Shown here in pieces: positions 16,496 to 63,088 of a stretch of DNA of 64,000 nucleotides (positions within the stretch are counted from its first letter, which is position 1; every line of letters begins with the position of its first letter). The DNA comes from Paramacrobiotus metropolitanus. Lineage: Eukaryota > Tardigrada > Eutardigrada > Parachela > Macrobiotidae. The DNA is taken from positions 496,001 through 560,000 of the forward strand of contig NW_026570228.1 in assembly GCF_019649055.1 (NCBI RefSeq), in the 5' to 3' direction. The position numbers were made by a program, and so were the translations under genes. The notes beneath the pieces were generated by a model. The model saw only the letters and a list, made by a program, of their open reading frames with translations, did not search any database and was not told the DNA's origin.

Positions 16496-17610
16496 TCACG
16501 TGATTACGTTGAGATACGCTTCCTGCAAAGCCCATTCGTGGAAAACATCATCCACCTTAAACCAGCACTGGTAGCGCCCGGCATGCTGCGCCTGTACACC
16601 CGGAATAATCAAGGTCGAATAACACTGACTTATTCCAACGACGGTGGTGACACTCCAGGCAATGTCTCCCCGCGCAGAATGAGTTGCGAATTTACTGTTT
16701 CCCGTTGCATACAAAACATAGTCTTCGTTTCTCCAAAGAAAACGATGCTCAAAATTGCCCTCCATGGCTAAGAACTTCACGTAGCATGGAAAACGAGCGG
16801 TATCGCCAACCGTAACCGTCACGTTGACCATCGGCGGTTGAAAAACGTGGGACGCGGTGACAATCGGACTGACAAAGAAGGTCTGAGTAACAACAACGTG
16901 GCTGCCGTTGTACTGCAAGCAATCGTATTTCCCGGTATGCACATGCGAAAACACCGGTAAATCTACAGTCAACGATCCCGTGGCGGAACTGCTGTCAACC
17001 CGGATAACGGTCTTGTCATAGTGATCGCCGATAGAGTTGCATAGCTGCACTGGAAGCCCCGATGTAGCCATTTTTTTCTGGGTTAAAAAGTAGGTTCCCG
17101 TTTACCGCTATCTCTGGACGGTATGTGTGCTTGTCGGCTTCAGCGACCGCGATGTCTCCATTGCAGTGCAGTCTTACTGTCCCGCCTTCTGGTGACCTAA
17201 TAATGCTAGCGTGTGGCCATGTTTCCGCTGATTTGCTGGCTGACATCGACGGCTCAACTAAATAAGCGATGCCATTACGGCGACTTCGGAATGCAGCGTT
17301 CAGGAGTTCATTAACTGCAAAAACAACAGTTCGGAAGCCAGGAAAAACTTAAGAGCGTATTTGGGCTGTAAAAAAAACATGTGGACTTGGACGGGATCAG
17401 ACTACTGAAAAAGTCATCGCATATTGCAATTGTTGGGCCCAGTGGTCAAGCATCAGTTTGCCATCATAGAAGTTCACGTTGTCAGTGTGCAGTATATTCA
17501 CAATTGCGCTTACCGGTTTCTCGGCTCAACCCTGCTTGGGCAAGGCTTATTGGGCTACTCAGGAATATCAGCATCAAATACAGCATTCCATGCGCACCCA
17601 GAATGGTCAT
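16496..17610 (-). CDS. Secreted two-Ig-domain protein, Ig-1 (dispersed copy)
   Basis: Leader exon 17610-17514 encodes a signal peptide (MLYLMLIFLSSPISLAQAG) and ends phase 1 at GTAAGC. The main exon is 17314-16496. The join matches three other copies at 46775, 56420 and 59059, whose leaders also end in AG-L-x-R-E and whose second exons also begin TTAA. Two Ig folds are visible: LHCNGD ... VNGNLLF ... HTGKYDCLQYNG, then VTVGDTARFPCYVKF ... RFLWRNEDYVLY ... HAGRYQCWFKVDD. There is no C-terminal membrane segment, so the protein is secreted (about 304 residues). The frame breaks in a T7 run on the plus strand near 17071: deleting one base restores continuity between LFNPEK and MATSGLPVQ. It lies about 30 kb from the array, on the opposite strand, and is the most divergent copy. 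Partner and role unknown. Confidence 0.8.
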
Positions 17611-43080: not shown

Positions 43081-43969
43081 TCACGCATCATGTCTACATT
43101 ACAGCCACTTACAAGGTAACATCATCCGACTGTATTCGCCATTGCGAAAAATTTTTTTTGCTTTGCGCCTTTTATTGCATAATTGTTGTAAAGGGCATCA
43201 GTAACGATGCCGTGATCAGTTAATCGAAAAATAATTGATTTACGGACACATTCAACAGCGATTCTGCGCAGAATTATGGACGCCGCCTTTTCGACTCTTT
43301 TGGCATCCAAAAGGACACCTTGCAACGCGGGTCTAGAATTTGTCTCTTGATTTAGCAAGAATGCAGCATTATCCTAATTTTTCGACAAGGTTGTTGTGCT
43401 AACCATCGCGGACAAAAAACAACAAGGAGGGTAAAGCGGAAATATTAAAAACCGGTGTTTTTGTGCGTGTGAACGTTCGATGTTGCGCTATATACAGAGG
43501 TAGAAGCTCGGTATTGCAGGCTTTGACAAAGAAGCGATTGAAAATTATATCTACTGTAACTGTTTGTAGAAGTACCGCAGTATGTGTTAGATCTTTCAAC
43601 TTGATTAATCATAATCTGTGCGATCGTGAAAATTTATATAATTCCAAATGTCGTCGAAGGAGTGCTGCATCAAGCACTAATTACGATGTAACAGACTATC
43701 TAATGGCTCACAGCAAATTCAGCATTTATGGCTGCACGGTATGTACAAGATATTAAATCTTTAGTAAATAATATTAACCATCTCATACCATTATCGAAAA
43801 TATTAAGGAATAATGAATCCCCGTAGATTGCCCGCAGGCGCCCGGGCGTAACGAAGCGCGACGCGAAGTGCGGTTCGATTTCCCTTAATATCGCGTAAAC
43901 ACGGAACAGCAAATAAAAACAATTACAGTACTAATTTGAAGTACTGTACATTTTTTGGATTTTGAATTA

Positions 43970-44197
43970 TTAATGCAGCTTACAGCACTGTGAAATCTTG
44001 TAAGTAATTTGAAAATTATTTTGGGATTTAAAATCTGTTTTGGACGTGCTGCCTTGGTTCTGCGTTTTATGTATTCGAAGGGATTCCGGACCAACCCAGC
44101 CTGCCCCGTCCCATGCAAACAGGACCAAGCTAAGAACTAGTAAGACATCTGCAAAGACGTCACGTACTATAATAGGTTCGATTCTCATTTTGTGCAT
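43970..44197 (-). other. Open frame with a signal-peptide-like segment, unit 1
   Basis: A 75-codon minus-strand frame reads MRIEP..., then FADVLLVLSLVLFAWDGAGW, which looks like a secretory leader. The counterpart in unit 2 (52403-52636) stays open across a 6-bp in-frame insertion. The substitutions between the two are mostly amino-acid changing, which argues against strong constraint. It may be a first exon or chance. Confidence 0.25.
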
Positions 44198-44382
44198 TTG
44201 AATCTGTTATTTTCCGAGCTGGAACCAATTTTTTTAATTTAATTTATGCATAAAATAGTTTTATATTTAGGGCATTGTCTCTGATACCAGAATCGAATCC
44301 TAAGTAGTAAGTACTTGGTTTAATCCTGTATGGAACCCTCGAATTTATTAATATTGATTCAATTATATTTTTGCTTTTGTAG

Positions 44383-45588
44383 TGTCCCTTTAATGGACGG
44401 TATTCTCTCACATACAAACAAGGCCCCACGAAACGCAGCAACCTGGTGCCGCAGACGGAAACCTCTTGTTATTGACTCGAAGATGATGCTGGATTATAAA
44501 TCCTGCCCGGATGCCACGGAAGAACGCAGTACGATTGATAGAGCCGACGAAGACTCGAATGATTTTTATTTCCGTTGTTTTTATAGCGCGATTAATTCAT
44601 TTTTATGTATTTTTATTGCAATACAGATGTCAGACTGGAGTGTTTGGGATCGTGGCGCAACGGAGTGAACCGGTAGCTTATCGGTCGCACCACACACACC
44701 ATGGCCAACAGTAACGAAGAAATATTTCACTGCTTTGTAAGAATACGGGATAATTATCGAGTCGAAACGTAAAGGTTATTTTATATCTGACAAATTATTG
44801 TACAGTTGTATAAGATGACGGACGCTGGAGTTCAATTGGCGCAGTCGGTCGACGCAACATGTAATGCACTGTTTTCCCCACAGGAAGGACCGCAGACGTT
44901 AACACTGACACCAGGTAAAAAAACAAAAATAGCAGTAAAATATTAAATTTCTAAAACATTTATTGTACTTTGATTTACCCGATTAAGTCGCACACGTAAA
45001 AAGGTGAGGGAAACAAGTGGCTTAATTACAACTGTATTTCCTGTTATAGAAAATAAACCCCAACCAAACTGTGTGTTTCCGCTGTACATGTGGCTGAGCG
45101 AGCGGAGAAGCTGGCATGCCATGGAATCGAATGTCCACTTCGGTTTTGCCGCTTCCGGGACGTCAATGCGGCAGTACACCGGGAATTCGACGGACGACGA
45201 CGATGTCATTCTGGAGACGACGTGTATGCGGGATTTCCCGACGCGGATCACCGTCGGGGAGTCGTTTAAAGCCGTCATGTTTGCCACTCGCGGATGGTAG
45301 AGATAGATCATAGAACCACAAATTTGCGAATTCTTATTAACGAAACGAATTTTTTCGTGTAGCTCGAGCGGATACATGTGTAGTTTGACCCTGAGCCAAA
45401 CTGTGTTTTTCCGCTGTGGCTAAGCGAGCGGAGAAGCTGGCATGCCATGGAATCAGATGTCCAGTTCCGTTTTGCCGCTTCCGGGACGTCATTGCGGCAG
45501 TACCCCGGCAATTCGACGGACGACGACGATGTCATCCTGGAGACGACATGCATGCGGAATTTCCCGACGCGGATCACCGTCGGGGCTA
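44383..45588 (+). pseudogene. Ectoprotein pseudogene fragment 1 (exons d-h, then a second exon g)
   Basis: Pieces align to exons d, e, f, g and h of the intact gene and then to a second partial exon g. Lesions: exon d is frameshifted at CCTGGTGCCGCAG with a stop at TGTTATTGA; exon e has TAG at 44674-44676, where the intact gene and fragment 2 read TAC. Exon h stops after SSGYMC and is fused directly to another copy of exon g (from about 45386), which is cut off at about 45588. Exon g itself is still well preserved (WLSERRSWHAMES, TDDDDVILETTCMR). No signal exon, so dead. Confidence 0.85.
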
Positions 45589-45623
45589 GTCGCACATATT
45601 CTAGTTACTTTTATAAGCATGTA

Positions 45624-45766
45624 CTGTATTTACACAAGTTTAAAAGCCTCAAAAAAGTCCGGGTGCGCGCAGAATATCCGACGGCTTTTTTGAACTTCAA
45701 AGAAGCCGCGCGCTATTGTTTACGGATACCGCCATTTTGGTGGCTCTTAAACTTGTGTAAATACAG
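45624..45766. mobile_element. 143-bp MITE with TA target-site duplication
   Basis: Terminal inverted repeats CTGTATTTACACAAGTTTAA (45624-45643) and its exact complement (45747-45766) are flanked by TA on both sides (45622-45623, 45767-45768). The equivalent site in unit 2 (about 55391-55396) reads GCATGTAACAG with a single TA and no element, so this is an insertion after the duplication. TA duplication and a CTGT-type end point to a Tc1/mariner-mobilised non-autonomous element. Confidence 0.85.
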
Positions 45767-45768
45767 TA

Positions 45769-46337
45769 ACAGTGATATCAGGAGTTGATATATATATATA
45801 GCACGCAAAGCTTTTCACTGCCCGAAATCGCAAGTATACACAGCGCAGCTAGATGTCGTCTTGAGATTGAACCTTTGATGACGTCGTTGGTGCGCTTCCG
45901 GGACGCAGCGATACATGTACGTGTCACGGCAGCGCTGAACGCACCGTATAACCCAGACGATCCAGGTGCACCACTGCCCGATCCGGCCGCTTCCTTCTCC
46001 CTGCACTTTTATATCGGAATCGTTTATTGTTGCTGCCCGATCAAGCTGTACCAGCGTGTGGCGCACCGAAAAAGCACTACATGAGCTGTTCGATGAAGCG
46101 TGGGCTTTGCCCGGCAGGAAGAAGGAAGCTGCCGGATCGGGCAGTGGTGCAACGTCTGGGTTATACGGTGAGTTCACCGCTGCCGTAACACGTACATGCA
46201 TCGCTGCGTCCCGGCAGCGCACCAACGACCTCATTCAAGGTTCGATCTCAATACGTCATCTAGCTGCGCTGTTAGCTAGCAATTTACGGCATTGAAAAGC
46301 TTTTGCGTGTTGCATCAACTTCTGATATCAGTACTGT
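45769..46337. mobile_element. Fold-back element, unit 1 copy
   Basis: Two arms of roughly 200-230 bp face each other: ACAGTGATATCAGGAGTTGA ... GCACGCAAAGCTTTTCACTG on the left answers CAATTTACGGCATTGAAAAG ... TCTGATATCAGTACTGT on the right. Small indels separate them. The centre is a spacer of about 100 bp. Open frames across it are mirror images of each other and not genes. A second copy lies at 55396-55976. Confidence 0.8.
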
Positions 46338-46437
46338 GACATGCATACGCCAGTCTCCAATCTGCATGATTACAATTTACGAAGTTAGACTAACTAGATT
46401 GAATTTAATTTGAACGCTGGTTGTTGTTGTATTGTAG

Positions 46438-46526
46438 CGTTGAACGAGAATTACTGCACAAAGCCACGTGCGTGGGTGGATTCTCTTTCGCCGGAGACGC
46501 GTACCACTGCCAATCGGACGAGACTG
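46438..46526 (+). other. Exon-like conserved segment, unit 1
   Basis: An acceptor (TTGTTGTATTGTAG) and a donor (CTG/GTGATG) frame 89 bases that read ATCVGGFSFAGDAYHCQSDE with two cysteines. Unit 2 has the identical segment at 56083-56171. It may be an ectoprotein-related exon stranded upstream of the Ig gene; it does not match a specific exon of the intact gene. Confidence 0.35.
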
Positions 46527-46774
46527 GTGATGTACGCAGCTTTTAGTGTTTTGCCTGTTGAATGGTGATGATCAAAAGCCACGCACCATTGCCCGGCCAG
46601 CTGTTCATCAAACACTTACGCCGAAGTATCTAAGCGCTATCATTTAGGAAGTGCTTTATTTCGGATACTTGCACAACTGTCGGCCATCGGGGAATTTACA
46701 GTTAAAGTAAATCATTGTCGTTGTGAACCGTTAATACAAAGCTTTTGTTGCCAAGGAACCCAGTCACTTTGAAG

Positions 46775-49700
46775 ATGACCGCTTTGGATATGCTGCACCT
46801 GGTGCTCTCCGTGGTCCTGGTACTACAGAGTTCATTACCATGTCCAGTAAAACAGGCCGGATTGACCCGAGAACTTAGTAAGAATTAATTAAATTGCGTA
46901 CCTTTTGTACCCAGGTGCACTGTACTCGTAAATCGACGGGGCAAGCGTAACATCGCAAACCTTTCGATGGACCAGTTTCTAGGAGCACGATTAAAGCACA
47001 GCATACATGCATATTTTGGCTTATTACTATTCATACCGTTTTTTAACGCGTATTTTTCAAAACGTCGGTAGCTATAGAATTAAGTATCAAAAAACAGCAT
47101 TGTTGAAAAAAACTGTACAAATCTGATGGCAACATTCAATCTTTGTTTGAATGCTCAGAGATTAGCCGTGCCTCTGGGTTTACATACCGCTTGTGCGTTA
47201 CCGTAACTACTTACGCACTTATTACTCCTCTATGAATTTTTATTGAACCGCTGAATAAGTAACTATTCGAATCGCCGAACTAAGAATAATATCATCATGT
47301 AACAAACCTTTATTCAGTGTGTTGAACAAGCGACAACGTCTTGCTTTTACATGTTCTAAAACTTCTTTCCAGTTACCATAACACGGAACAGCTCCCAGAA
47401 CGCTCTGAGCATTACCACGTTAAATCTCGAAACTTAAACGCTGAAAACGAAAATGTGTACAAATTTTTATTATGTGAAGTACAAAATAACGAGTAACTAC
47501 CCGATATCGTATGCTGGAAGTTAAAGGTCACAGCCCAGTGCCCAGTAATTAGAGTCAGCCGTGATAAAGTCAAACTTCTGAACTCGAGCTACGCCGTAGA
47601 CGTATAATCAATCGCTGTGGTATACTCATAGTATAATCATTCAATGCTCGAGTTATTCAACGTGATTCGATTTTAAGCTCTTCGGTGACCTTGCGTTTCT
47701 TGAAATAATAATTTCTAGTCTGTAAAGATTAGCCTTGATTTTTTATTTTAAATTATTTTATCATGGTATAATCGAAAATCGTGGCCCTCTGTGTTGCCCG
47801 TTGCATTGAAAAAATGTTAACACACTTTATTTTATGGGTATTGTGTAGGGGGAATAGAAGTTTCAAGTTAGTCCCGGAAAAAGAAAATTCTGGCACTTAT
47901 GTTTAAGTAGTAGTTTTCGTCTAACCACTATGAACAATGTGTTATTACTACGAAGACGGTATTTATTGCATACTTGACGGGCATTGGCGTCAGGGCGCAA
48001 CATGGTGTTCAGGATTTTTTTCCAAGTGATCGCGAACACTTAATTGATATCCCTTTGCATAATTAGCAACAAGGGACCTTAAAGCAGCAGTAACAACAGA
48101 ACTCAAACTTGTATCATAAGTTAATTACAAACTACAGGTGTCCAAAAATGACCAATTTCGGACTTTCTGACCTCTCGCAGATCTTGCTAATTAACTAATT
48201 AGTGGGTGAGTAATTAAATCGGAAATAAATCAGCAAGGTACAATTGATAACGCTTTATTCAAAAATGTCCAACGCAGATTCTGTGAGTTGAACCATAGAT
48301 GACCGCAGTCCGTCAAAAACGTGTGTTGCGTGCCAACACCATTGCCCATGAAGGGTTGTGAATACACGGGCGGGTGCACTTTCGACAGATTCTTATCACT
48401 ACGTAACCAGAATAATTTAATATCGGTTCGGACGCCAAACATGCACCATGCGGTTTGGTTGTTGGAAGTTGGCAAAACATGGGGTTGCTGAACACCACCC
48501 CGGGCGGTCGGCATGGTAGACGTGATTCTAATTCTACCGTCCGTGTATAATTGTAGCTCTGTGAATTGAAATGGCAGCACAATACTGCTTTCTGCCGCGT
48601 TTCACCTTCGATACCGAGTACCGATGCACCGCTTGGGCAAGCAAAGCTGTGAACCCACGTAGCTTTAAAAAACATGCAAATTTTGAGTTTTGACCTGTTT
48701 GTTCTCTAATAACTATATCTTGTAATGCGATGTTTTGTTGACTGTTTTTCTACGTCGCTGTGCTGACGTGTATGCATTAAGGAATTATGTAAAATCCATA
48801 ATTTTAATCAACAGCATCTTCGTTGTGATTAAATCTAGTGCTTACGTACAGTGCACAGAAAAATCTGGTCTTTATAAATGTAACGAGCTCCTAGCATTCA
48901 GCGAAATTTTTTATGTCGTGCATTGGAGAGTACGTAAAGTGTCACGGTTTTCCGTTGATCCTAAGATTTTGGTAGTCACAGATGTAATTAAGCAATATAT
49001 TGTCCAGCATCTGCTCGATAGCTTTAATTTTTAAATGGTAGTAACTCTATTCAAAATGGAGTGCAGGGGATGAACCGGATGACAACAGCCACACCGTTAT
49101 ATTTATGCCGGTCTCATGACACTAAATATTTGTACAGTTTCCACGCGTGCACCGTAGAAAGATAGTCACAACTCCGGTCATTTTGCAGTCACATTTGCGG
49201 CGGAAACACTTAAAAGAACTGTTGGAGGTGCTAAATTTGACTTTAAGAAAACGAATCTTAGCGACCCCTAGGTATAACTTGTGTCAGCAAGTTTCGCTTG
49301 CCACCTTTCCCTGCAGGTGATAATCAGAGCCAAATGAAAAAAAAGCCGCTGGTGACAAATTTTCATATATGCACCAAATTAAAAGTAGTGGCAATAGCCA
49401 AAAGCGGTTGTGGTAGGGAGTGCTAATAATCAAAGGGAGTGTAGGGCCTACCCGGCCTAGGGCGTAACTATGGTCATTTCCTGAATATTAAAACAATGCT
49501 CTTAAAGCATCTCACTAAGAGCGAAACATAGTTTGGTCATTGTACTTGTGTTTATGTGTAATGATAATTGCGACCTTGTCCATTCTTCGAATTAGTCCTG
49601 AAAAAGTATATAAAATTACTTTGTACAAAAAAAATGCAAACATACAGCTTAGGACGAAATGGCCGCACACCCAACATATCCACATTCAGTACGCATGCGG

Positions 49701-50987
49701 TGCAGTGCACTGTACGACTAAGTTCAAAATATCCGGTTCGTACAAGTGCACTGCACCGCATGCGTACGAGGAGGATTATAGTTGAGTCGGTAGCGCATAG
49801 CTGCAGCTAGTTAAACTTAAACCGACCACCAGTTCCATAAGCTATTGACGTAACAGTCAACCGTGGAAGGTTGCATTTCCAACAACTGAACTGCAGTCAG
49901 TCGTGGGGGGTTGCACTGTTTGCTTACCAATCGCAGCTATTGGTTTGTGCAACCATCCACGGTTGGCTGTTACGTCACAAACTTACCGAAATGGTGTTCA
50001 GTTTAACTCACAGCAGCTATGCGCTACCGACTCAACTATAATCCTCCTCGTATACATAGAATGCTGGGTATGGGGCTATGCGACCATTTCGTCCTAAGCT
50101 GTATGCGCGGTTGACTCGGCCAGCACAGAAGGAAGGAACTTTTAATCCTGTGTTGGGTTTGTTTAGTTAATGGACGCCTGGACAACGCAATCCGCAGCGC
50201 AAAGGATGGTATTGTCCATTTAAATGAGTCTTCAATCAGCAAGCCCCCGGGGATATGGCCAACCGAGAACATCGTCAGGTCACCCGAAGGAGGCACAGTG
50301 AGGCTGCACTGCAAAGGAGGAGATCCTGTGCCGGTGGGCAAAGAGAAAAAGCCACAGCTCTGGTTGAACGGGAGGCAAAAATTCACTGTGAAATCAGAAA
50401 CGCTGCCGTTTGAGGTACAGACATGCAGTTGCCTTGTTAATTCGACTGCTACGCTGTTTTCTAACAAGTACACCGTCGACCTAAGTAATCCCAGCACGGG
50501 AGAAATGATTATTGTTTTACTGGCATTTTCTCATGTCCATGCCGGGAAATACGAATGTCGACGGTACAACGGCAGCTCTTTTCTCACCACCCAAACATTC
50601 CTTGTCAGTCCAACAGTCACACCTGCTCAAGTCTTTCGGCCACCGATGCTCAACGTGACCGTTAGAGTGGGTGACACCGCCCGCTTTCCATGCTACGTGA
50701 AATTCATAGCCATGCCGGGAGACTTTGGGGATCGTTTTCTCTGGAGAAACGAAGATCACGTAATTTATGCTGATGGGATTAAGGAATTCCAGACCGGGCG
50801 TTCCACAATGACTAATTTTAGGACAACCGTTCACATATCTACGGATGGATTTTGCCACTGTCACTCGACTCTGGAAATCTTGAGCGTGCAGGCCAACCAT
50901 GCCGGGCGTTACCAATGTTGGTTCAAGGTTGATGACGTCTTCTACGAATGGATCGTTCAAGAAGCTTACCTAGTTGCAATTACTTAG
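46775..50987 (+). CDS. Secreted two-Ig-domain protein, Ig-2 (intact)
   Basis: Leader exon 46775-46877 and Ig exon 50167-50987 (stop TAG) join in phase 1 across a 3.3-kb intron to give 307 residues with no frame break. Residues 1-22 are a signal peptide (MTALDMLHLVLSVVLVLQSS). Ig domain 1 spans about 68-170 with Cys83, Trp100 and Cys165 (HAGKYECRRYNG). Domain 2 spans about 196-305 with Cys210, Trp227 and Cys285 (HAGRYQCWFKVDD). Extra cysteine pairs (CSC at 121-123, CHC at 264-266) may give a second disulfide per domain. NST/NGS/NVT sites suggest N-glycosylation. No membrane anchor, so an extracellular binding or recognition role is likely, but the ligand is unknown. This is the best-preserved member of the family here. 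Confidence 0.85.
46878..49640. other. Intron of Ig-2, first part
   Basis: Sequence shared with the Ig-3 and Ig-4 introns over the first 450 bp, and with Ig-4 again to about 47830; the rest is particular to this unit. Short frames at 48230-48675 (minus) have no motif and are not called. Confidence 0.5.
49641..50105. mobile_element. 465-bp fold-back inverted repeat inside the Ig-2 intron
   Basis: ATACAGCTTAGGACGAAATG at the left end is answered by CATTTCGTCCTAAGCTGTAT at the right end. The arms continue inward through CGAGGAGGATTATAGTTGAG and its complement near 50030. A second nested palindrome (CGCATGCGGTGCAGTGCACT against AGTGCACTGCACCGCATGCG, 49692-49768) sits in the left arm. It ends about 60 bp before the Ig exon, close to the branch-point region. 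No matching element seen before the Ig-3 or Ig-4 exons. Confidence 0.75.
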
Positions 50988-51490
50988 AAAATTGTGGTCT
51001 GTCGCGGTAAGGTTATGTGACCACAATACCGATGGTTTGTCCTTTCGATAACGTCAACGTTTCTGAATCAGAAAGAAATGCATGATGGCTGGCGATGTTA
51101 CGTCGTAGTTGCGTGTATGCTGCGTGTGGCAGGTCCTGCGTCTCTGTGTATCTTTGTATCTCTGTGTATCTGTGTATCTTTGACTTGTGAGTCTCTGTGC
51201 GCCTCTGTGTATCTCTCTGTGTATGTGTGTGTATCTAAGGGCTGGCATTGGGCCCGCGCTCAAGCTCTGACTCAGACTCTGACCGCTCAAACTCTGACTC
51301 TGACTGTTCAAACTCTGACTCTGACTGTTCAAACTCTGACTCTGACTGAATAACCTAAGAATAACTTAAGAAACCTAAGAAACCTAAGAAACCAAAGAAA
51401 CCTAAGAAACCTAAGAAACCTAAAAAACCTTCAGAGTCAGAGTCGGAGTTGGAGCGGTCAGAATCAGAGTCAGAGTCAGAGTTGGAGTCT
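50988..51490. repeat. Low-complexity tract at the unit 1/unit 2 border
   Basis: A GTGTATCT-type run (51140-51240) is followed by about four copies of CTCTGACTCTGACTGTTCAAA. Next come about seven copies of an AACCTAAGAA-like unit. Last is the inverse of the first array (AGAGTCAGAGTCGGAGTTGG). The CTCTGACTC and GAGTCAGAG arrays can pair across the A-rich middle. Probably the scar of the duplication junction. Confidence 0.7.
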
Positions 51491-52402
51491 AGGCCACGCA
51501 TCATGTCTACATCGCACACACTTACAAGGTTACATCATCCGACTGTATTCGCCATTGCGTACATTTTTTTGCTTTGCGCCTTTTATTGCATAATTGTTGT
51601 AAAGGGCATCAGTAACGATGGGGTGATCAATTAATCGAAAAATAACTAATTTACGGACACATTCAACGGCGATTTTGCGCAGAATTATGGACGCCGCCTT
51701 TTCGACTGTTTTGGCATCCAAAGGGACGCCTTGTAACGCGGATCTAGAATTTGTCTCTTGATTTAGCAAGAATGCAGCACTATCCTAATTTTTCGACAAG
51801 GTTGTTCTGCTAACCGTCGCGGACAAAAAACAACAAGGAGGGTAAAGCGGAAATATTCAAAACTGGTGTTTATGTGCGTGTGAACGTTCGATGTTGCGCT
51901 ATATAGAAGCTCTGTATTGCAGGCTTTAACAAAGAAGCGATTGAAAAATGTATCTAACTGTTTGTAGAAGTACCGCAGTATGTGTTAGATCTTTCAACTT
52001 AATTAATCGTAATCTGTGCGATCGAGAAAATTTATATAATTCCAAAGGCCATCGAAAGAGTGCTGCATCAAGCACTAGCTACGAGTACGATGTAACAGAC
52101 TATCTAATGGCTCACAGCAGATTCAGCATTTATGGCTGCACGGTATGTACAAGATATTAAATCTTTAGTAAATAATATTAACCATGTCATACCATTATCA
52201 AAAATATTAAGGAATTATGAATCCCCGTAGATTGCCCGCAGGCGCCCGGGCGTCGGTTCCTTGGCACAAGTATCAACGAAGCGCGACGCGAAGTGCGGTT
52301 TGATTTCCCTTAATATCGCGTAAACACGAAACAGCAAATAAAAACAATTACTGAATTACAGTACTAATTTGAAGTACTGTACATTTTTTGGATTTTGAAT
52401 TA

Positions 52403-52636
52403 TTAATGCAGCTTACAGCACTGTGAAATCTTGTAAAAATTTTGAAAATTATTTTCGGATTTAAAATCTGTTTTGGATGTGCTGTCTTGGTTCTGCATTT
52501 TATGTATTCGAAGGGATTCCGGACCAACCCAGCCTGCCCCGTCCCATGCAAACAGGACCAAGCTAAGAACTAGTAAGACATCTGCAAAGAAGTCACGTAC
52601 AGATACTATACTAGGTTCGATTCTCATTTTGTGCAT
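52403..52636 (-). other. Open frame with a signal-peptide-like segment, unit 2
   Basis: Counterpart of the minus frame at 43970-44197: 77 codons with the same FADVLLVLSLVLFAWDGAGW stretch and two extra codons just before it. Same reservations apply. Confidence 0.25.
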
Positions 52637-52891
52637 TTGAATCTGTTATTTTCCGAGCTGGAACCAATTTTTTTAATTTAATTTATGCATAAAATAGCTT
52701 TATATTTAGGGCATTGTCTCTGATACCAGAATCGAATCCTAAGTAGTAAGTACTTGGTTTAATCCTGTATGGAACCCTCGAATTTATTAATATTGATTCA
52801 ATAATATTTTTGCTTTTGTAAATTAAAATTTCGTTTCTCCCACTTGTTAATATTATAGGAAATAAGATGATATTGTTTTTATTATGATTTG

Positions 52892-55363
52892 TGGAACCGG
52901 AACAGTGTACCTTTAATGGACGGTATTCTCTCACATACAAACAAGGCCCCACGAAACGCAGCAACCTGGTGCCGCAGACGGAAACCTCTTGTTATTGACT
53001 CGAAGATGATGCTGGATTATAGATCCTGCCCGGATGCCACGGAAGAACGCAGTACGATTGATAGAGCCGACGAAGACTCGAATGATTTTTATTTCCGTTG
53101 TTTTTTTAGCGCGATTAATTCATTTTTATGTATTTTTATTGCAATACAGATGTCAGACTGGAGTGTTTGGGATCGTGGCGCAACGGAGTGAACCGGTACC
53201 TTATCGGTCGCATCACACACACCATGGCCAACAGTAACGAAGAAATATTTCACTGCTTTGTAAGAATACGGGATAATTATCGTCGAAACGTAAAGGTTAA
53301 GTATTTTATGTCTGACAAATTATTGTACAGATGTATAAGATGACGGACTCTGGAGTTCAGTTGGCGCAGTCGGCCGACGCAACATGTAATGCACTCTTTT
53401 CCCCACAGGAAGGACCGCAGATGTTAACAATGACACCAGGTAAAAAAACAAAAATAGCAGTAAAATATTAGATTTCTAAAACATTTATTGTACTTTGATT
53501 TACCCAATTAATTCGCACAAGTAAAAAGGTGAGGGAAACAAGAAGCTTAATTACAGCTGTATTTCCCATTATCTTTATATCTTTATATCTTTTCTTTATA
53601 TTCATACAAGCTTACCGACCAAAGCGTATTTATGCGCCGTTTTAATAGGCTCGTCAACGCGTGGTCAGTTTAAGTCCAGCTTGATCTTAAAAAATTCCAT
53701 ATTTTCCATAGGTGTGCCAATAGATTTTTGTTTGTTTTTATTACCCAGTGGTCAGAAGATGGTTTCACCAGGTCTTAAGTATAGGAAACGTAAAGAGCAC
53801 TCGAAGAAGTAAGTACTGTATTCACTGCACAGTTATGAAAAGCCCATAACACAATGACTGTAACCACGGAGACTATAACGGATACATAAATACATACTTC
53901 CTTTTTAATGTAGATTGTAGATGAAAAATTGTTATGTGAGCAGCAAATTACGTAAACCTCCATAAACGGTCAAGTACATTGCCCAGTATGCCGCCTACAC
54001 CGTATCTGTACGTCAGAACGTAAAAACATCAGAAGTCAGGACGCCAAAAGACAGAACGTCAGGTAATCCGAACGTGAAAAATTAATAACGTCTGAACGTG
54101 AAAAATCAAAAACGTCAGAAATTCAGAACGTCTGAATATCAGAATGTCAGAATATCAGAACGTTAGAACGTCAGAACGTTAGAACGTCAGAACATTAGAA
54201 CGTCAGAAGGTCAGAACGTAAAAAATTAAAAACGTCAGAACGTCAGAAGTTCAGAACGCCAGAATATCAGAACGTTAGAACGTCAGAACAGCGGAATGTC
54301 AGAATGTCAGAATGTGAAAAATAAAACGTTAAAAGGTCAGAACGTCAGAACGTGAAAAATTAAAAACGTCAAAATGTCATAAATTCAGAACGTCAGAATA
54401 TCAGAACGTTAGAACGTCAGAACATCAGGATGTCAAATTGTGAAAAGTGAAAAAACGTCAGAAAGTAAGAACGTCAGAAGTTAAGAACGTCAGAAGGTCA
54501 GAACGTTAGAAAGTCCAAACGTGAAACATCAGAACGTCAGAACATCAGGATGTCAGATTGTGAAAAGTGAAAAAACGTCAGAAAGTAAGAACGTCAGAAG
54601 TTAAGAACGTCAGAAGGTCAGAACGTTAGAAAATCCAAACGTGAAACATCAGAACGTCAGAACATCAGAGCGTAAAAAATTAAAACCTTAGAACGTTAAT
54701 ACGCCTTATAAAACACTACTACGAAAGCGTAGATCCGATTTCAATCTTAGTCTATTTCCTTTATATACTTCAATTTATAATGACCTTTCCAAAACAAAGC
54801 CAGTGCTATCCAGTACTTAAGTGCCGAGCGCGGATGCGCGAGGCTACCTTGCCCAAACTGTGTGTTTCCGCAATGGCTGAGCGAGCGGAGAAGCTGGCAC
54901 GCCATGGAATCGAATGTCCAGTTCCGTTTTGCCGCTTCCGGGACGTCAATGCGGCAAAACACCGGGAATTCGACGGACGATGACGATGTCATTCTGGAGA
55001 CGACGTGTATGCGGGATTTCCCGGCGCGGATCACCGTCAGGCAGTCGTTTAAAGCCGTCATGTTTGCCACTCGCGGATGGTACAGATAGAACCCCAAATT
55101 TGCGAATTCCTGTTAACGAAATGAATTTTTTCGTGTAGCTCGAGCGGATACATGTGTAGTTTGACCCTGAGCCAAACTGTGTTTTTCCACTGTGGCTAAG
55201 CGAGCGGAGTAGCTGCATGGCACGCCTTGGAATCAGATGTCCAGTTCCGTTTTGCCGCTTCCGGGACATCATTGCGGCAGTGGCAATTGACGGACGACGA
55301 CGATGTCATCCTGGAGACGACATGCATGCGGAATTTCCCGACGCGGATCACCGTCGGGGAGTC
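52892..55363 (+). pseudogene. Ectoprotein pseudogene fragment 2
   Basis: Exons d (with the same CCTGGTGCCGCAG frameshift as fragment 1), e (here without the TAG stop, reading CGGTAC) and f (52892-53440). After a satellite insertion come exon g (54855-55080), the same truncated exon h, and a second partial exon g ending at 55363. The h-g fusion is shared with fragment 1, so it predates the segmental duplication. The second exon g has extra deletions (GGCAGTGGCAATTGACGG). Dead. Confidence 0.83.
54009..54702. repeat. GAACGTCA-type minisatellite, about 690 bp
   Basis: Irregular tandem of GTCAGAA and GTTAGAACGTCAGAAC units of 7-10 bp with occasional GTGAAAAATTAAAAAC spacers. Inside it, a 120-bp higher-order unit is duplicated almost exactly (about 54421-54540 and 54541-54660). 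It splits ectoprotein fragment 2 between exons f and g and is absent from unit 1. Confidence 0.85.
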
Positions 55364-55395
55364 GCACATACTGTAGTTATTTTTATAAGCATGTA

Positions 55396-55976
55396 ACAGT
55401 GATATCAGGAGTTGATATAACACGCAAAGCTTTCCACTGCCGTAAATTGCGAGTACACAGCGCAACTAGATGTCGTCTTGAGATTGAACCTTTGATGACG
55501 TCGTTGGTGCGCTTCCGGGACGCAGTGATACATGTACATCACAGTACGTGTCACGGCAGCGCTGAACGCACCGTACCCGGACGATATCCAGGTGCACCAC
55601 TGTCTGATCCGGCCGCTTCCTTCTCCCTGCATTTTTTATATCGGAACCGCTTATTGTAGCCGCCCGATCAAACTGTACCAGCGTGTGGCGTACCGAAAAA
55701 GCACTACATGAGCTGTTCGATGGAGCGTGGGCGGTGCCCGGCATGGGGAGAAGGAAGCGGCCGGATCGGGCAGTGGTGCACCTGGGACGTCCGGGTTATA
55801 CGGTGCGTTCAGCACTGTCGTAACACGTACATGTATCGCTGCGTCCCGGCAGCGCACCAACGACCTCATTCAAGGTTCGATCTCAATACGTCATCTAGCT
55901 GCCGCTGTTAACTAGCAATTTACGGCAGTGGAAAGCTTAATTTGCGTGTTGCATCAACTTCTGATATCAGTACTGT
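55396..55976. mobile_element. Fold-back element, unit 2 copy
   Basis: Same element as 45769-46337, with ends ACAGTGATATCAGGAGTTGA and CTTCTGATATCAGTACTGT and facing arms of about 230 bp. Being in the same place in both units, it was present before the duplication. Confidence 0.8.
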
Positions 55977-56082
55977 GACATGCATACTTTTCGGCCAGTC
56001 TCCAATCTGCATGATTACAATTTACGAAGTTAAACTAACTAGATTGAATTTAATTTGAACGCTGGTTGTTGTTGTATTGTAG

Positions 56083-56171
56083 CGTTGAACGAGAATTACT
56101 GCACAAAGCCACGTGCGTGGGTGGATTCTCTTTCGCCGGAGACGCGTACCACTGCCAATCGGACGAGACTG
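56083..56171 (+). other. Exon-like conserved segment, unit 2
   Basis: Identical to 46438-46526, including acceptor and donor. See that entry; function unknown. Confidence 0.35.
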
Positions 56172-56419
56172 GTGATGTACGCAGCTTTTAGTGTTTTGCC
56201 TGTTGAATGGTGATGATCAAAAGCCACGCACCATTGCCCGGCCAGCTGTTCATCAAACACTTACGCCGAAGTAACTAAGCGCTATCATTTAGGAAGTGCT
56301 TTATTTCGGATACTTGCACAACTGTCGGCCATCGGGGAATTTACAGTTAAAGTAAATCATTGTCGTTGTGAACCGTTAATACAAAGCTTTTGTTGCCAAG
56401 GAACCCAGTCACTTTGAAG

Positions 56420-58067
56420 ATGACCGCTTTGGATATGCTGCACCTGGTGCTCTCCGTGGTCCTGGTACTACAGAGTTCATTACCATGTCCAGTAAAACAG
56501 GCCGGATTGACCCGAGAACTTAGTAAGAATTAATTAATTGCGTACCTTTTATACCCAGGTACACTGTACTCGTAAATCTACGGGGCAAGCGTCACATCGC
56601 AGACCTTTCGATGGACCAGTTTCTAGGAGCACGATTAAAGCTCAGCATATATGCATATTTTGACTTATTACTATTCATACCGTTTTTTAATGCGTATTTT
56701 TCAAAACAACGGTAGCTATAGAATTATCGAAAAAAAAACAGCAATTGTTGGAAAAAAACTGTACAAATCTGATGGTAACGTTCAATCTGTGTTTGAATGC
56801 TCAGACGTTAGCCCTGCCCTTGGGTTAACATACCGCTTGTGCGTTACCGTAATTACTTACGCACTTATTACTCCTCTATGGATTTTTACTGAACCGCCGA
56901 ATAAGTAACTATTCGAATCACCGAACTAAGAATAATATCATCATGTAACAAGCCTTTATTCAGTGTGCTTAACAAGCGACAACGTCTTGCTTTTACATGT
57001 TCTAAAACTCCTTTACATGTTCTAAAACTCACTTCACTATATAATAACCGCGTAAGCCTTTACGAACTTCTTACTCTGTCGAGTTCACTAGTCCGATCCA
57101 CTGAACCAAACTTTTATGTCTACGTATCGTTCGATACCCATTAGCGGCCAGATTTGCCATCGCAAGTCAGTTTTTAAAGAAAAACAAACGTTTGAAAGAA
57201 ATGCCACAAAAAAAGGTGCGCAAATCTTTAATCTTGCATCGGTTTTATTAGTTAATGGACACTTGGACGAAGCAATCCGCAGCGCAAAGAATGATATTGT
57301 TTATTTGAAACAATCTTCAATCACTGATCCAGTGGAGATTCGGCCAGCAGATAGCATTATTAGGGCACCGGAGGGAAGAACAGCGAGAATACATTGCAAA
57401 GGCGGTAAGCCGGTGCCGGCGGGACAAGAGGAAAGACCGCAGCTCTGGTTAAATGGAAGGCGATTGTTTGCCTCGAAATCAGAGAGCAGGTCGTTCGAGA
57501 TGCACCGATGCAGCTGCCTCGTTGAGTCGGCAGCTGCGTTAATTCATAGCAATTATAGCCTTATCGAAAGCAACCCAGTTACGGGAGAACTGATTACCGA
57601 TTTACGGGAATTTTCCCATGCCCATGCCGGGAAATACGAATGTGTACAGTACAACGGCAGCGACTTTCTGACCACCCAAACATTTTTCGTCAGTCCGACG
57701 ATCACCGCGTCTCAAATTTTTAGGCCACCGATGCCCAACGTGACTGTCAGAGTGGGTGGCACCGCCCGTTTTCCATGTTACGTAAAATTTCTGGCAATGC
57801 CGGGCGACTTCGGAGATCGCTTTCTCTGGAGAAACGATGATCATGTGATTTATGCCAAAGGGTTTAAGGAATTTCAAACCAAGCTAGCTGGCCAACTTGA
57901 ATGCAGATGTTCACATCGCAACGGATCGAAAGTGTCACTGCCACTCGACCTTGAAAATCTCTCGCGTGGAGGCCAGACATGCCGGGCGCTATCAGTGCTG
58001 GTTTAGAGTTGATGACGTCTTTCACGAATGGGGAATTCAAGAAGCCTATCTAATTGTGAATAACTGA
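56420..58067 (+). pseudogene. Secreted two-Ig-domain gene, Ig-3, with a late frameshift
   Basis: Leader exon 56420-56522 is identical in protein to Ig-2. The Ig exon 57252-58067 joins in phase 1 across a 729-bp intron. Domain 1 is complete (IHCKGG, QLWLNGRRLF, HAGKYECVQYNG), and domain 2 begins normally (VGGTARFPCYVKF, RFLWRNDDHVIY). At about 57897-57901 the frame slips by one. The shifted frame ends at 58006, while the correct frame resumes with ADVHIATDRKCHCH and runs through HAGRYQCWFRVDDVFHEW to TGA at 58067. As written, the last strand and Cys of domain 2 are lost. A sequencing error is possible, but the slip is not in a homopolymer. NXS/T sites and the extra CSC pair are kept. Confidence 0.78.
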
Positions 58068-59058
58068 CATTTTTGCTGTGCGGCGGAAACGTTATAAAAG
58101 GACTAGAACTAGAAGGGTGTGGTTTTTTCTGTAATCATAGCGATTTTCCTAAGCTTAAGCTTTGAAGAGCAGGTTTGGTTTGTTACTCTGCCTTGTTACT
58201 GGTCTGTTAATTGCCATTTCGTGCTTCGTGTCACACGAAGCAGTGTTTACCTTTCAAATAAATCTATATTTACAGTCAACTGCCATGGTAATTGCTTGAC
58301 TCACGGATACATACCGGAAATCTGCAGTATACTTCTGACAGCAGGATTCAGTTGTTTCTTTCTCCTTATGCGGCAACTCGTCAGTCTAATTGCAGCTTCA
58401 GTATCCGCTTTTTGTATGGAGCATATAAAAGCTTTCCTTATGTTTCTTGAAAACCTTGAACAAGTACTATTAAACTATGCTGGTTAACGTTGCTTATAAT
58501 TTTTATTCAATAAGCCGAATTCTCTTGTTATTGTTAAGGAGAATATTTTTTAACGCGGTATCAGTGACTCCACACGCCATCACAAACTTTTTTTGATTCA
58601 ACTGCGGTGAATAATGAGTTCAAATGTTTTCTTGTAAAAATTGCCTTTGTGGACAATTATCCGATGATATTAGGATATCCGAGTGGCGAATAAGGATAGG
58701 ATAAGTATGAAGAAATATAAAAATTTCGGATAAGGGTTCGGTTAAGAACAATTTTAATAAGTGTCGGATAGGTTTAGGATAAAGAAACCTTATCCGATTC
58801 CGATCTCTAATGCACGCAGCTTTTAGTTTTTTGCTTGTTCAGGGGCGATGATGAAAAGCTATGCACCATTGCCCGGCCAGCTGATCGTCAAACTCCTATG
58901 CCGAAGTATTGAAGCGCTGTCATTTAGGAAGTGTTTTATTTTGGATACCTGCGCATTTGTGCGGCCAGCGGGGAATTTACAGTTAAAGTAAAATCATCCT
59001 ATCCTTGTGAACCATTAATACAAAGTTTTTGTTGCCAAGGAACCCAGTCTCTTTGAAA
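58068..59058. other. Spacer between Ig-3 and Ig-4
   Basis: Contains a 122-codon frame (58119-58487) with hydrophobic runs but no leader exon or motif, not called. A GGATAAGG/GGATAGG-rich stretch follows at about 58660-58800. Similarity to the other units resumes abruptly at about 58808 (TGCACGCAGCTTTTAG). Confidence 0.5.
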
Positions 59059-62000
59059 ATGACCGCTCTGGAGATGCTGGAACTGGTGCTCTCCATGGTC
59101 CTGGTCCTACAAAGTACAAAGCCATGCCCAGTAAAACAGGCCGGATTAACCCGAGAACTGAGTAAGGATTAAGTAATTAACTGCGTATCGTTTATACCCG
59201 GTAGTCGGGTACTGTACTCATAAATCAACTGAGCAAGCTTCGCATCGCAGCCTTTCGATGGACCAGTTCTTAGGAGCACGATTAAAGCCCAGCAAGCATG
59301 CATATTTTGGCTTATAACTATTCATACCGTTTTTTACTGCGTATTCTTCAAAACGTCGTTAGCTATTAAAGTTATCGAAAAAACAGCATTGTCGAAAAAA
59401 CTGAACAGATCTGGTGGTAACACTTAAAATGTGTTTGAATGCTCAGAGATTAGCCGTGCGTTTGTGTTTAGTAGTTTACATACCGTTTGCGCGTTACCGT
59501 AACTATGTAGTTACGCACTTGCTACTTCTCTGAGGATTTTTATTGAACCGCTGAATAAGTAATTATTAATCGAATCCCCGAACTAAGAATAATATCATTA
59601 TGTAACAAACCTTTATTCAGTGTGCTTAATAAGCGACCACGTCTTGCTTCACATGTCGTAAATAAAAAATCCTTTCCAGTGTTAGAGCGGCATCCGCTCT
59701 CTATAGGATCGTTAGATAAAACATTTCGATAGAATTTGTATGCTTTGCCGATAGCCTAGTGGTGCCTCTCTCGGCCTTAGAGTATGGAGGTTGTGGGTTC
59801 GATTCCCTCAATCGGCAGATTTTTTCCGAAGTTCTATACGATCCTAGCACATCCCTTGCACCAGTTAGCTTAAGACGGAACAGCTCCCAGAACGCTCTGA
59901 GCATTACCACGTTGAATCTCGAGACTTAAACATTGAAAACGAAAATGCGTACAAATTTTTATTATGTGAAGTACAGAATAACGAGTAATTACCCGACATC
60001 GTATGTTGGAAGTTAAAGGTCACAGCCCACCGCCCAGTAACTTGAGTCGGCCATGATAAAGTCATATGGACTCTCTCATGCAGGCTGACTCAAGTTTGTT
60101 TGTTGGAAGTTACCATGAAGCATTCATGATAACAAACTTCCAATCTCGAGATACGCCGGAGGCGGTATAATTGATTACTGTGCTATATTTAATCAGTGCT
60201 CGAGTTATTCAATGTGATTCGATTTTAAGCTCTTCGGTAACCTTGCGTTTCTTGAAATTATAATTTCTGGTTTGTAAAAATTAGCCTTGATGTTTTCATT
60301 ATAAATTATAATATTATGGTATAATCAAAAATGTTGGCCCTTTATGCTGCACGCTGCATCGAAAAAATTTTAGCGCGCTTTATCGGCAGATCAATATAAC
60401 CAAGCAGAATACAAGCACCAAAACGTGAAAATACGGGCGCACTGCACAGGCCACGTCGATCTCGCCTGTATGTATTCCATGTTTCTACGTACTTCGATTG
60501 TACCGGAAACAGACCAAAAGTTACAAAGCCTGATAAAGTTTTCGAGCGCAAAATCTCGTTCGCATTCCCTCCATGCTTTTCGATTAAAAAGTTGAAAAAA
60601 CGTATGCCGCATGGAGTATTATGTAAACGCTGTATGGAGTGCGCATTATTCTTAACTAAAATTTCTTTGTCGCTAATAGGCAGTACCAAAAACAAAGCGT
60701 GATTGATTGGAAACGTTTCCAAGAATTCTTTGTGGAAATTGCGCGATTATTGTCTCGAATTTTTTGTAAAGATAATAACTTTAAAAAAGACTGCATCGTT
60801 AAATGATGTTATAGTCCGGAAAAAAACCGTCATACGAGCACGCTACGCTTCGGTCACGCAGTGCTCGCAAAAAGCGAGTGCACTTTTCTAGTGTACTATT
60901 TACTCCTTTAAAATGGGCACGCCTCTGCTTAAAACTGGAGACCGCTTTATGTCATATGTATATGCAATCGTTATCTCGCTATATGCACTTCGTATGATTC
61001 AATCAGCGACAAATGATATCAAACAATCTCACCGGAAATAAATCTGGATTGGTCGCGGTTTGTTTTTAGGCCACCTATGATGCCTAAGAGCCAAGATACA
61101 TGCTATAGTTATATTTTGCTGAAGTTATATTTATTTCTGGGTAATGCGATGTTACGTTGACGCTTTTTCTTATTCACGTCCTGTTCGAACAAGAAATTCT
61201 AAAGGGAATACAAACGTGCTTTCGCGGTTAGATAGAACGTTATATCAATGTTGCCAAATCCGTGTATGACCTGAATTTGGCGTTTTTCGAAATATTAACA
61301 TTTTCTTGTGTTAAAGATTGAAAAATGCACTTGCAGATACGCGCAAGTCATTTCTGCATTTCTGCATTATTGCAAGTTAACTGCATTGAATTTTAATGCG
61401 TTGTAATTTTTTTCTCGAAAGCAATGGTCATTTGCCCCCTTTGAGACCTTTTCGCACAAGTTAGGAATTTATTTCTTGATAAAAAAGTACAAACCTTACT
61501 CACCACTCACCAGTGTACGGTCAGTGTACGCGTTCGCAATCTTCGATTCCAAGATTTGAGAAAGCATCCGCCACGAAATATAGGTGGAACTAACTTTGCC
61601 TTGTGAGAGCGAGGTGGAAATTCTAATGTCGCAGCGCACTTCGATAAATTCAATCAGAGACAAATAATCTGCCGAAGAGGTTCACCGGGAGCAAATCTAA
61701 ATCAGTTGCTCTCTGTTCTCAGACGATCAGTGACTGCTGCTTTTTGATTCTGTGTAGTGCGATGTCATGTTTCTTTACAAAGTTATGTAGACGTGTGTGT
61801 AATCAAAAAGATAAAATCAATATCAGTCATTTATCATTTTAATCAACGACATCGCCCTTACGCTTTAGAATTGATTTTGACGTAGGTAAAAAATTACTCG
61901 TCTTAATAACTAACCAGAGAACCAACACATATACAGAGTTAGTTGCAGCGGTGCATTGAGCGCGGTTTGCAGCTTAGAAGTTGCAGAGGTTTGCAAAAGG

Positions 62001-63088
62001 AAATCGGCTTTTATAATTTAATGCATGAGCTTTTGGCACAGTAATGTTATGACAGTGCACCGAAATTATTCAGTAGTGAAACTCGTGCACTACAGACAAA
62101 CGGCATAAATATAGTTGTGGACTTGTGGTTTGCGATTATTCTCGCATGATGTTTTGCCCATTATTCTCAGAAAAGCACATAAATATGCATACGACAAGCA
62201 AATAAACGCGCGCGGTTGTTTTAGCGTGCAAGAAAAGTGACCAAACCTTTAACCTTTGGTTTTTTAGTTAACATGCGTCTGGACAATGCAATCCGGAGTG
62301 CAAAAAACGGTATCATTCAGTTAAAAGAGTCTTCAATCAACGAACCAGTGGAGACAAGGCCAGAGGATAGCATCATCAGGTCACCAGAGGAAGAACAGCA
62401 AGACTACACTGCAAAGGCGGAGTGCCTGTGCCGGTGGGCCAAGAGGAGAAAGCCACAACTCTGGTTGAACGGAAGGCGAATGTTCACCGTGAAATCCGAA
62501 ACACTTCCGTCTGTGATACAGCGATGCAGTTGTCTCGTTGATTCAGCTGCTGCGCCTTTTTCTAGCAGGTATACCCTCGTCGAAAGCAATCCTGCTACGG
62601 GTGAAATGATTGTTGATTTTCTGGCGTTTTCTCATTTTCATGCCGGGAAATACGAGTGTCTACGATATAACGGCAGCTCACTTCTCACCACCCAGACTTT
62701 TTTTGTCAGTCCGACTGTCACGCCGTCCCAAGTCTTTCGGCCACCGATGCCTAACGTAACGGTCAGGGTGGGTGGCACCGCCCGCTTTCCTTGTTACGTA
62801 AAATTCCTAGCCATGCCGGGCGATTTTGGAAAACGTTTTCTTTGGAGGGACGAAGATCATGTGATTTATTCTCCTGGGAATAGGGAAATCCAGACCGGCC
62901 ACTCCACAATGAAAAACTTTGAGGCAAATGTTCATATCCAGACTGATGGAATGTGCCAGTGTCACTCTACCCTGGAAATTTTGCACGTGCAGTCCAACCA
63001 CGCCGGGCGCTACCAATGCTTGTTTAAGGTTGATGACGTCTTCCATGAATGGATTACCCAAGAAGCTTACTTAACTGTTATTGCCTAA
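59059..63088 (+). CDS. Secreted two-Ig-domain protein, Ig-4, with a compensated double frameshift
   Basis: Leader exon 59059-59161 (MTALEMLELVLSMVLVLQST) and Ig exon 62268-63088 (TAA) join in phase 1 to 307 residues, the same length as Ig-2. Between 62388 and 62452 one G is missing and one base is gained, so about 21 codons are read in a shifted frame. The family text SPEGG..RLHCKGG...PVG becomes SPEEEQQDYTAKAECLCRWA. This removes the B-strand cysteine position of domain 1 but introduces two new cysteines nearby. The rest is normal: LWLNGRRMF, HAGKYECLRYNG, VGGTARFPCYVKF, RFLWRDEDHVIY, HAGRYQCLFKVDD. The gene is open throughout and may be functional with an altered first domain. Confidence 0.8.
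59704..59846. mobile_element. Short insertion carrying a tRNA-like sequence
   Basis: TAGGATCGT (59704-59712) and ACGATCCTA (59838-59846) are inverted ends. Between them, 59747-59816 resembles a tRNA: GCCGAT pairs with ATCGGC, an A-box-like TAGCCTAGTGG and a B box GGTTCGATTCC are present. The anticodon arm does not fold properly (no T before the anticodon), so it is a tRNA-derived element or tRNA pseudogene, not a working tRNA. Unit 1 lacks it at the matching position near 47375. Confidence 0.55.
60103..60143. repeat. Short hairpin in the Ig-4 intron
   Basis: TTGGAAGTT and AACTTCCAA close a 41-base hairpin whose centre ATGAAGCATTCAT is itself nearly symmetric. Not present in unit 1. Confidence 0.55.
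60342..60722 (-). other. Uncharacterised 126-codon open frame
   Basis: Longest frame in the Ig-4 intron, antisense, beginning METFPINHALFLVLPISDK. It begins roughly where unit 3 stops matching unit 1. No motif, signal peptide or splice partner recognised; could be a transposon remnant or chance. Confidence 0.2.

Follow-up and report, generated by a model that had tools for sequence, protein, structure and literature searches.

Of the immunoglobulin (Ig) proteins that come closest to those described here, ZIG and Dpr proteins have two Ig domains, hemolin has four, and Dscam, an arthropod Ig protein linked to immunity, has many and uses alternative exons. FREPs are secreted, and butyrophilin/B7 proteins and NITRs are vertebrate membrane receptors. 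Eight zig genes are known, four of which have been implicated in nervous-system maintenance (PMC3400552; papers given by PMC number are cited for parts of their text). The VCBPs of amphioxus and Ciona are secreted V-type Ig proteins of soluble recognition (PMC4757023, PMC4008424), molluscan FREPs form a multigene family with one or two Ig domains (PMC7588048), and insect hemolin is an Ig protein linked to immunity (PMC11999971). Tardigrade immune mechanisms have been described as largely uncharacterised, with several canonical pathways reported missing (PMC7056985). Here we describe a cluster of genes for putative secreted two-Ig proteins in a 64-kb stretch of the genome of the tardigrade Paramacrobiotus metropolitanus (positions 496,001 to 560,000 of NW_026570228.1; hereafter the window). 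We suggest, with a probability of roughly 0.45, that this is one cluster of a birth-and-death family whose products would serve soluble recognition, a role that we read from sequence.

Among the papers listed in a search of titles and the first lines of abstracts, we found no description of this family; as most subscription papers lay outside its scope, this is no proof of absence. The word "immunoglobulin" does not occur in the main texts of PMC11191345, PMC9224920, PMC7056985, or PMC5531438, nor does "tardigrad" occur in PMC11999971.

Three tandem genes and a block duplication

The sequence-only reading of the window had described two tandem genes whose leader exons encode identical peptides. 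The identity of the leaders held up: leader exon 1 (46775–46877, plus strand) and leader exon 2 (56420–56522, plus strand) share one 35-residue reading, MTALDMLHLVLSVVLVLQSSLPCPVKQAGLTRELS. The number of genes rose to three, since a diverged relative of both, leader exon 3 (59059–59161, plus strand), lies in a unit (58810–59680) that is 83% like the first leader unit. Leader 1 pairs with the Ig-2 exon (50167–50987), leader 2 with the Ig-3 exon (57252–58067), and leader 3 with the Ig-4 exon (62268–63088), all on the plus strand. As read from the sequence, leader exon 1 encodes a signal peptide and CPVKQAGLTREL and meets a donor GT at 46878 in phase 1. In all three genes, a 103-nt leader precedes a GT donor, an AG acceptor precedes the Ig exon, and the phases match (read by eye); splicing is taken from these signals, not from transcripts. 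The Ig-2 exon encodes two Ig domains, is open throughout and has an in-frame stop right after domain 2, so no transmembrane segment or further domain lies downstream. This organisation would fit secreted two-Ig proteins, each encoded by a leader exon and a single Ig exon.

The Ig exons have diverged, as had been noted, and are 74–79% identical pairwise in DNA. The frame breaks reported earlier are also present. Ig-3 is frame-broken in the window, where it differs by an internal 5-base gap from a copy on another contig of the same assembly, C214 (the window's own contig is labelled C8), and that copy is open. Ig-4 is open, and two offsetting 1-base gaps relative to its copy on a third contig, C322, alter residues near the domain-1 B strand; the intervening residues replace the B-strand cysteine region. 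A dispersed relative, Ig-1 (16499–17348, minus strand), is split over two open reading frames (ORFs; 16496–17101 and 17016–17348), both matched by tblastn. It is related, at 53% identity over the compared part, in line with its earlier description as a dispersed copy, and scanning the window for a signal peptide followed by a CPV pattern revealed no leader for it.

The identical leaders come from a recent 4–5 kb segmental duplication among neighbours with a boundary inside intron 1. Block A (43082–47371, plus strand) contains a DUF7042-like fragment, the promoter region, leader 1 and the start of intron 1, into which it reaches by about 0.5 kb. Block B (51495–57017, plus strand) ends 12 bp short of a stretch homologous to the Ig-3 locus on C214. 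The blocks are 91–96% identical in four main pieces; the earlier statement that about 1 kb around the leaders is nearly the same was right about the near-identity and too short in its length. The block boundaries at 47371 and 57017, like the flanks that the copies have in common, reveal a segmental duplication; we reject homogenisation of the leaders by gene conversion, which is not needed, and the word "homogenised" is not supported. A DNA search with the leader unit gave five matches, three on C8 and one each on C214 and C322, and this confinement likewise argues for block duplication rather than family-wide homogenisation. Thus, the proposed pattern of a shared promoter and leader with variable binding domains survives for the variation of the Ig domains and fails, across the family, for the sharing.

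The duplicated region has other features. Fragments related to each other lie at 40.3–41.4 kb (a DUF7042 match, PF23069) and, by DNA similarity, at 44.4–45.4 and 52.9–53.5 kb, two of the three inside the duplication blocks. Block B contains a degenerate tandem array of about 70 copies of the 8-base unit AACGTCAG (54010–54673). Nested inverted repeats resembling a miniature inverted-repeat transposable element (49641–50105, no strand assigned) occupy intron 1 directly upstream of the Ig-2 exon.

C214 carries a second version of the locus. It is colinear with the window from 34 to 40 kb (97% identity over most of this length, 93% at the end) and from 44.9 to 48.0 kb (94.5%), after which the colinearity resumes in the Ig-3 exon region (92.7%); parts of 28.7–31.8 kb also match at 88–97%. 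Downstream, the colinearity extends to 568.7 kb of C8 at 92–94%, and C214 holds an additional copy of the C8 563–569 kb segment. C8 580–583 kb had no match on C214; a dispersed repeat at 582.5–583.0 kb (L121, 2490–3000) gave 1197 first-look candidates, of which 40 were scored. On C214, the leader is followed about 8 kb on by an intact Ig-3 exon (L111). Ig-2 was not found there, with no family match between 62.7 and 125 kb among the 138 of 269 candidates scored, and neither was the second leader, as the leader-unit search gives a single unit. The same leader therefore precedes Ig-2 in the window and Ig-3 on C214. C214 may be an allele or a segmental copy of the window locus; as we read them, the two versions differ in the Ig exon placed behind the leader, which would make the locus a case of structural variation altering which Ig exon joins a leader.

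A large family across the genome

The genome (one genome; 169.8 Mb in 533 contigs) gave 14 matches to a SAHS1 probe, itself matched to PDB 5xn9, a mark of a eutardigrade. We searched it with the Ig-2 protein and obtained at least 138 matches at E ≤ 0.001, with 138 of 269 candidates scored. After nine rows that were fragments of neighbouring matches had been dropped, merging left at least 127 loci, which bears out the earlier view that a secreted two-Ig family has expanded. Adding 31 rows, picked by eye from two more searches with queries of other subclades, brought the total to at least 153 loci on 58 contigs. As these distant loci may include other Ig genes, we set the family size at 127. The copies are partly clustered (for example on C1, C8, C32, C35, and C56) and partly scattered, with 58 singletons. 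Pattern matches in prokaryote (9) and viral (33) contigs yielded no confirmed relative, in collections where animal homologues would scarcely be expected.

Haplotypes left uncollapsed in the assembly and indel errors of long reads could have raised both the copy number and the number of lesions. Over kilobases, identity between the cluster and C214 or C322 reaches 97–98%, and the published P. metropolitanus assembly was made with Canu (PMC11191345). Yet 144 of the 153 loci stay when C214 and C322 are set aside, dS is below 0.2 in three of the pairs listed, two of them C8/C214 pairs, and the gap that breaks Ig-3 spans five bases, unlike a single-base slip. We consider it very improbable that the assembly has inflated copy number and lesions.

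In 93 cases, a frame of 110 or more residues runs without a stop to the end of domain 2; 14 of these cover about domain 2 alone, and four are on C214. Seventy-six end 1–9 residues past the terminal motif, the other 17 lacking the motif as written. Both domains are encoded by one exon in the window clade, and a two-domain exon in a single frame was seen in 26 members. In a second, large clade, many frames begin at VSHTxIPP, which suggests that an upstream exon encodes the N-terminal end of domain 1.

Leaders are found beyond the window. The signal-peptide and CPV scan of 14 sequences (the window and 13 loci) detected ten leaders in seven of them, three in the window and seven in the loci, besides four pattern matches that we judged to be chance. 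Outside the window cluster, the leaders are diverged and keep the signal peptide and CPV[K/Q]. For other subclades, the pattern scan found no leader in three of five upstream stretches. A search with one such leader returned six places including itself, two on C46 strongly and those on C161, C56, C74, and C9 weakly (E 0.009–0.3); five of them precede a family exon of the same orientation by 1–5 kb, and on C9 the exon is 19 kb away. Together, these data fit a large birth-and-death family in which block duplication adds copies to this cluster while others decay.

Constant and variable parts of the protein

To compare members, we aligned 77 sequences chosen for completeness, that is, the 93 frames minus L112 and L081 (removed by hand) and 14 removed for gaps. 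Every one of the 77 has cysteine at positions 75, 120, 176, and 195, and so has each of the 76 rows without a gap at position 31. An invariant extra cysteine precedes the E strand of domain 2, often as CxC (position 174 is cysteine in 48 of 76), and a CxC-like motif also precedes the E strand of domain 1 (positions 31/33, compared with 174/176 in domain 2). The extra cysteines may, as one explanation, form a covalent dimer.

Mean entropy over the 77 members was 2.94 bits in domain 1 before the E strand, 2.53 in C′–D of domain 2, 2.13 from CxC to E, 1.60 in E-F-G of domain 1, 1.54 in A–C of domain 2, and 1.13 in F-G of domain 2, the lowest of the six regions. The most variable parts, judged from the alignment, are thus domain 1 before its E strand and the C′–E edge of domain 2. 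A peak of variability in the F-G loop, as in the complementarity-determining region 3 (CDR3) of antibodies and T-cell receptors (TCRs), was not seen in this alignment, in which F-G entropy is lowest, or in the site models described below, which give F-G a mean omega of 0.16. Since this loop is the most conserved, the antibody-like picture is unsuited.

We fitted site models for omega, the ratio of nonsynonymous to synonymous rates, with our own implementation, in which relative branch lengths were fixed and there was no recombination term. The window clade comprised eight sequences (12 members minus three fragments and L112) and the large clade 45 (49 minus four for gaps). Uniform purifying selection, which the sequence-only reading had set against a recognition role, is not what we found: in the window clade, M0 gave an omega of 0.32, and M1a was better than M0 by 36 log-likelihood units. 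About 30% of sites fit an omega of 1, without support for a class above it. A first run had assigned an omega of about 200 to 2% of sites; this signal came from residues of intronic origin and from the part of Ig-4 that is frame-shifted, and it was gone after exon trimming, masking and removal of L112.

In the 45-member clade, the comparisons M1a–M2a, M7–M8, and M8a–M8 gave 55.0, 45.3, and 14.5, suggesting positive selection, which was lost in the M8a test under a stricter column filter. Under M8, sites with a posterior above 0.95 for omega >1 made up 11 of 53 in domain 1 before E and 5 of 48 in C′–E of domain 2, compared with 0 of 37 in E-F-G of domain 1, 1 of 46 in the linker and A–C of domain 2, and 0 of 30 in F-G. 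Mean omega was 0.74 in domain 1 before E, a value reached by 3 of 213 circular shifts, versus 0.16 in F-G of domain 2. Among 18 pairs picked from the tree, omega was 0.52 in domain 1 before E, 0.20 in E-F-G, 0.22 in the domain-2 core, and 0.41 in C′–E. Rates are therefore strongly heterogeneous: some parts evolve fast, near-neutrally or with mild diversification, and positive selection is not proven.

These rates bear on whether the copies are mostly decaying duplicates that have diverged under relaxed constraint and not through functional diversification. Within the window, Ig-3 and Ig-1 are broken and Ig-4 is altered, and the share of window-clade sites at an omega of 1, with none above it and no robust positive selection, speaks for decay. 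Against decay, 93 frames are free of stops, the stop position is kept in 76 of them, the four cysteines are invariant in the alignment (with its members chosen for completeness), and the F-G region is held at its low omega. Decay as the main explanation is, in our judgement, quite unlikely.

Domain 2 has the V-set fold. The B–F cysteines (120 and 195) are present in every aligned member, Pfam matched its V-set model in 47 of 77, and the best of five structure models reached a predicted local distance difference test score (pLDDT) of 68 and a predicted template modelling score of 0.66. The VIA-align Z scores of this model were 10.9 to a sodium-channel beta-subunit entry (5ayq_B), 10.9 to 8zjx_G, one chain of a butyrophilin–TCR complex entry, 10.8 to a human lambda light chain (2cd0_A; root-mean-square deviation 2.5 over 98), 10.7 to Dpr2 (6eg1_A), and 10.4 to the PD-L1 V domain (6sru_G). 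The Foldseek matches include NITR entries and a ZIG-8 entry (6pll_A), and a Dpr10/DIP-alpha entry (6nrq_B) is also among the structural matches. Such tied matches indicate the fold only. By sequence, domain 2 matches BTN3A1 (E 9.5e-5). For domain 1, a motif alignment of 23 members is consistent with an Ig domain, with Pfam matches below the cut-off.

The same matches raise the question of a neural surface code like that of C. elegans ZIG or insect Dpr/DIP proteins, expanded in this lineage, in which secreted or tethered Ig proteins would maintain or specify nerve connections by selective pairing. The secreted two-Ig architecture is the same, and profiles match DIP-alpha (E 1.3e-11) and Dpr2 (E 1.2e-7, over parts of both domains), in addition to the ZIG-8, Dpr2, and Dpr10/DIP-alpha structures. 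The sequence matches are generic, however, as titin scores above both (E 2.7e-16). In addition, the copy number is well beyond the eight zig genes (PMC3400552) or 21 Dprs (PMC11999971), and decaying copies and copy-number differences would be unusual in wiring genes. On this evidence a neural code is unlikely.

We favour the reading that the family is a repertoire of soluble recognition proteins encoded in the germline, whose targets would most likely be microbes or other non-self in the body fluid or gut. The constant F-G side of domain 2 would be the surface that all members use to pair with, or dock on, a common partner, and the variable end of domain 1, with the adjoining edge of domain 2, would contact diverse ligands. 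Our reasons for favouring immune recognition are that the proteins appear soluble and multiplied, with variable copy content and partial decay, and that NF-kB, the intracellular components of Toll signalling, and most genes of the Imd pathway are reported missing from tardigrades (PMC7056985). An immune role is thus plausible. On the unlikely side is the fuller proposal of a soluble two-Ig repertoire of more than 100 members that would reverse the antibody arrangement, with the CDR3-like face fixed, distal domain 1 recognising, and locus versions swapping exons behind a leader, in a lineage without NF-kB. In sum, what the sequence-only reading observed is confirmed, and its interpretation is partly supported.

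Several results weigh against soluble recognition. Positive selection is absent from the window clade (M7–M8 2ΔlnL, twice the log-likelihood difference, 0.02; M2a and M8 add nothing). When 41 of the 214 columns, those gapped in more than 3% of sequences, were dropped for the 45-member clade to leave 173, the three comparisons fell to 9.8, 21.6, and, for M8a–M8, 0.82. Of 213 circular shifts, 19 gave an omega as low as that of F-G. The regional pattern is not seen in four close-copy pairs (omega 0.28 in domain 1 before E and 0.45 in E-F-G, with few changes). The structure prediction proposed earlier was informative in part: only one domain-2 model of five was usable (pLDDT 68 versus 30–38), and the two-domain model failed (pLDDT 33). 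Domain 1 is weakly Ig by Pfam, with E values of 0.004–0.06 in three of four members and no match in the fourth, all below the cut-off. Finally, the nearest solved relatives by profile include titin, DIP-alpha, IgLON, and contactin, which are muscle, neural, or adhesion proteins, as well as butyrophilins.

Rapid change and high copy number would also suit a reproductive or egg-surface family, in which fast-evolving secreted Ig proteins act in gamete recognition or in the eggshell. P. metropolitanus is gonochoristic and has many male-biased transcripts (PMC11191345), but the main text of that paper is among those in which immunoglobulins go unmentioned. We rate this role as rather improbable, on a par with decay.

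Elsewhere in the window, a Kelch-type gene (14645–16000) belongs to a multigene family with 40 genome matches, chiefly on C7, C252, and C273. Two ORFs, 4585–5544 (319 aa) and 6857–7861 (334 aa), have a multi-pass-membrane look by eye and no Pfam match at E 0.01; they may be gustatory-receptor-like.

Comparison with known systems

If soluble recognition is correct, so large a family of secreted V-type Ig proteins would supply concrete candidate recognition molecules in tardigrades. The family is also an instance in which Ig domains have diversified while the F-G side stayed constant. Its domain 2 resembles butyrophilin/B7 V domains and fish NITRs in sequence (BTN3A1) and in fold (PD-L1 and NITR entries), but the resemblance is limited to one V domain. 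As with hemolin and Dscam, a link to immunity is proposed for an Ig protein; unlike them, the tardigrade genes encode both Ig domains in a single exon behind a leader of their own. A Dscam-type array of alternative Ig exons behind one leader was not found in the window, where each of the three Ig exons has its own.

FREPs share with the tardigrade family secretion, the multigene character and the small number of Ig domains, and differ by their C-terminal fibrinogen domain, which the tardigrade proteins, with a stop after domain 2, lack. VCBPs are similar in being secreted, V-type, and soluble, but the tardigrade proteins have no chitin-binding domain: the Ig-2 stop follows domain 2, and most frames (76 of 93) end shortly after the terminal motif. 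ZIG and Dpr/DIP proteins are secreted or surface Ig proteins of multigene families, and to them the tardigrade family is joined by fold and profile matches and by the secreted two-Ig architecture. It is set apart by its many more copies, its extra conserved cysteines, and its highly conserved domain-2 F-G region.

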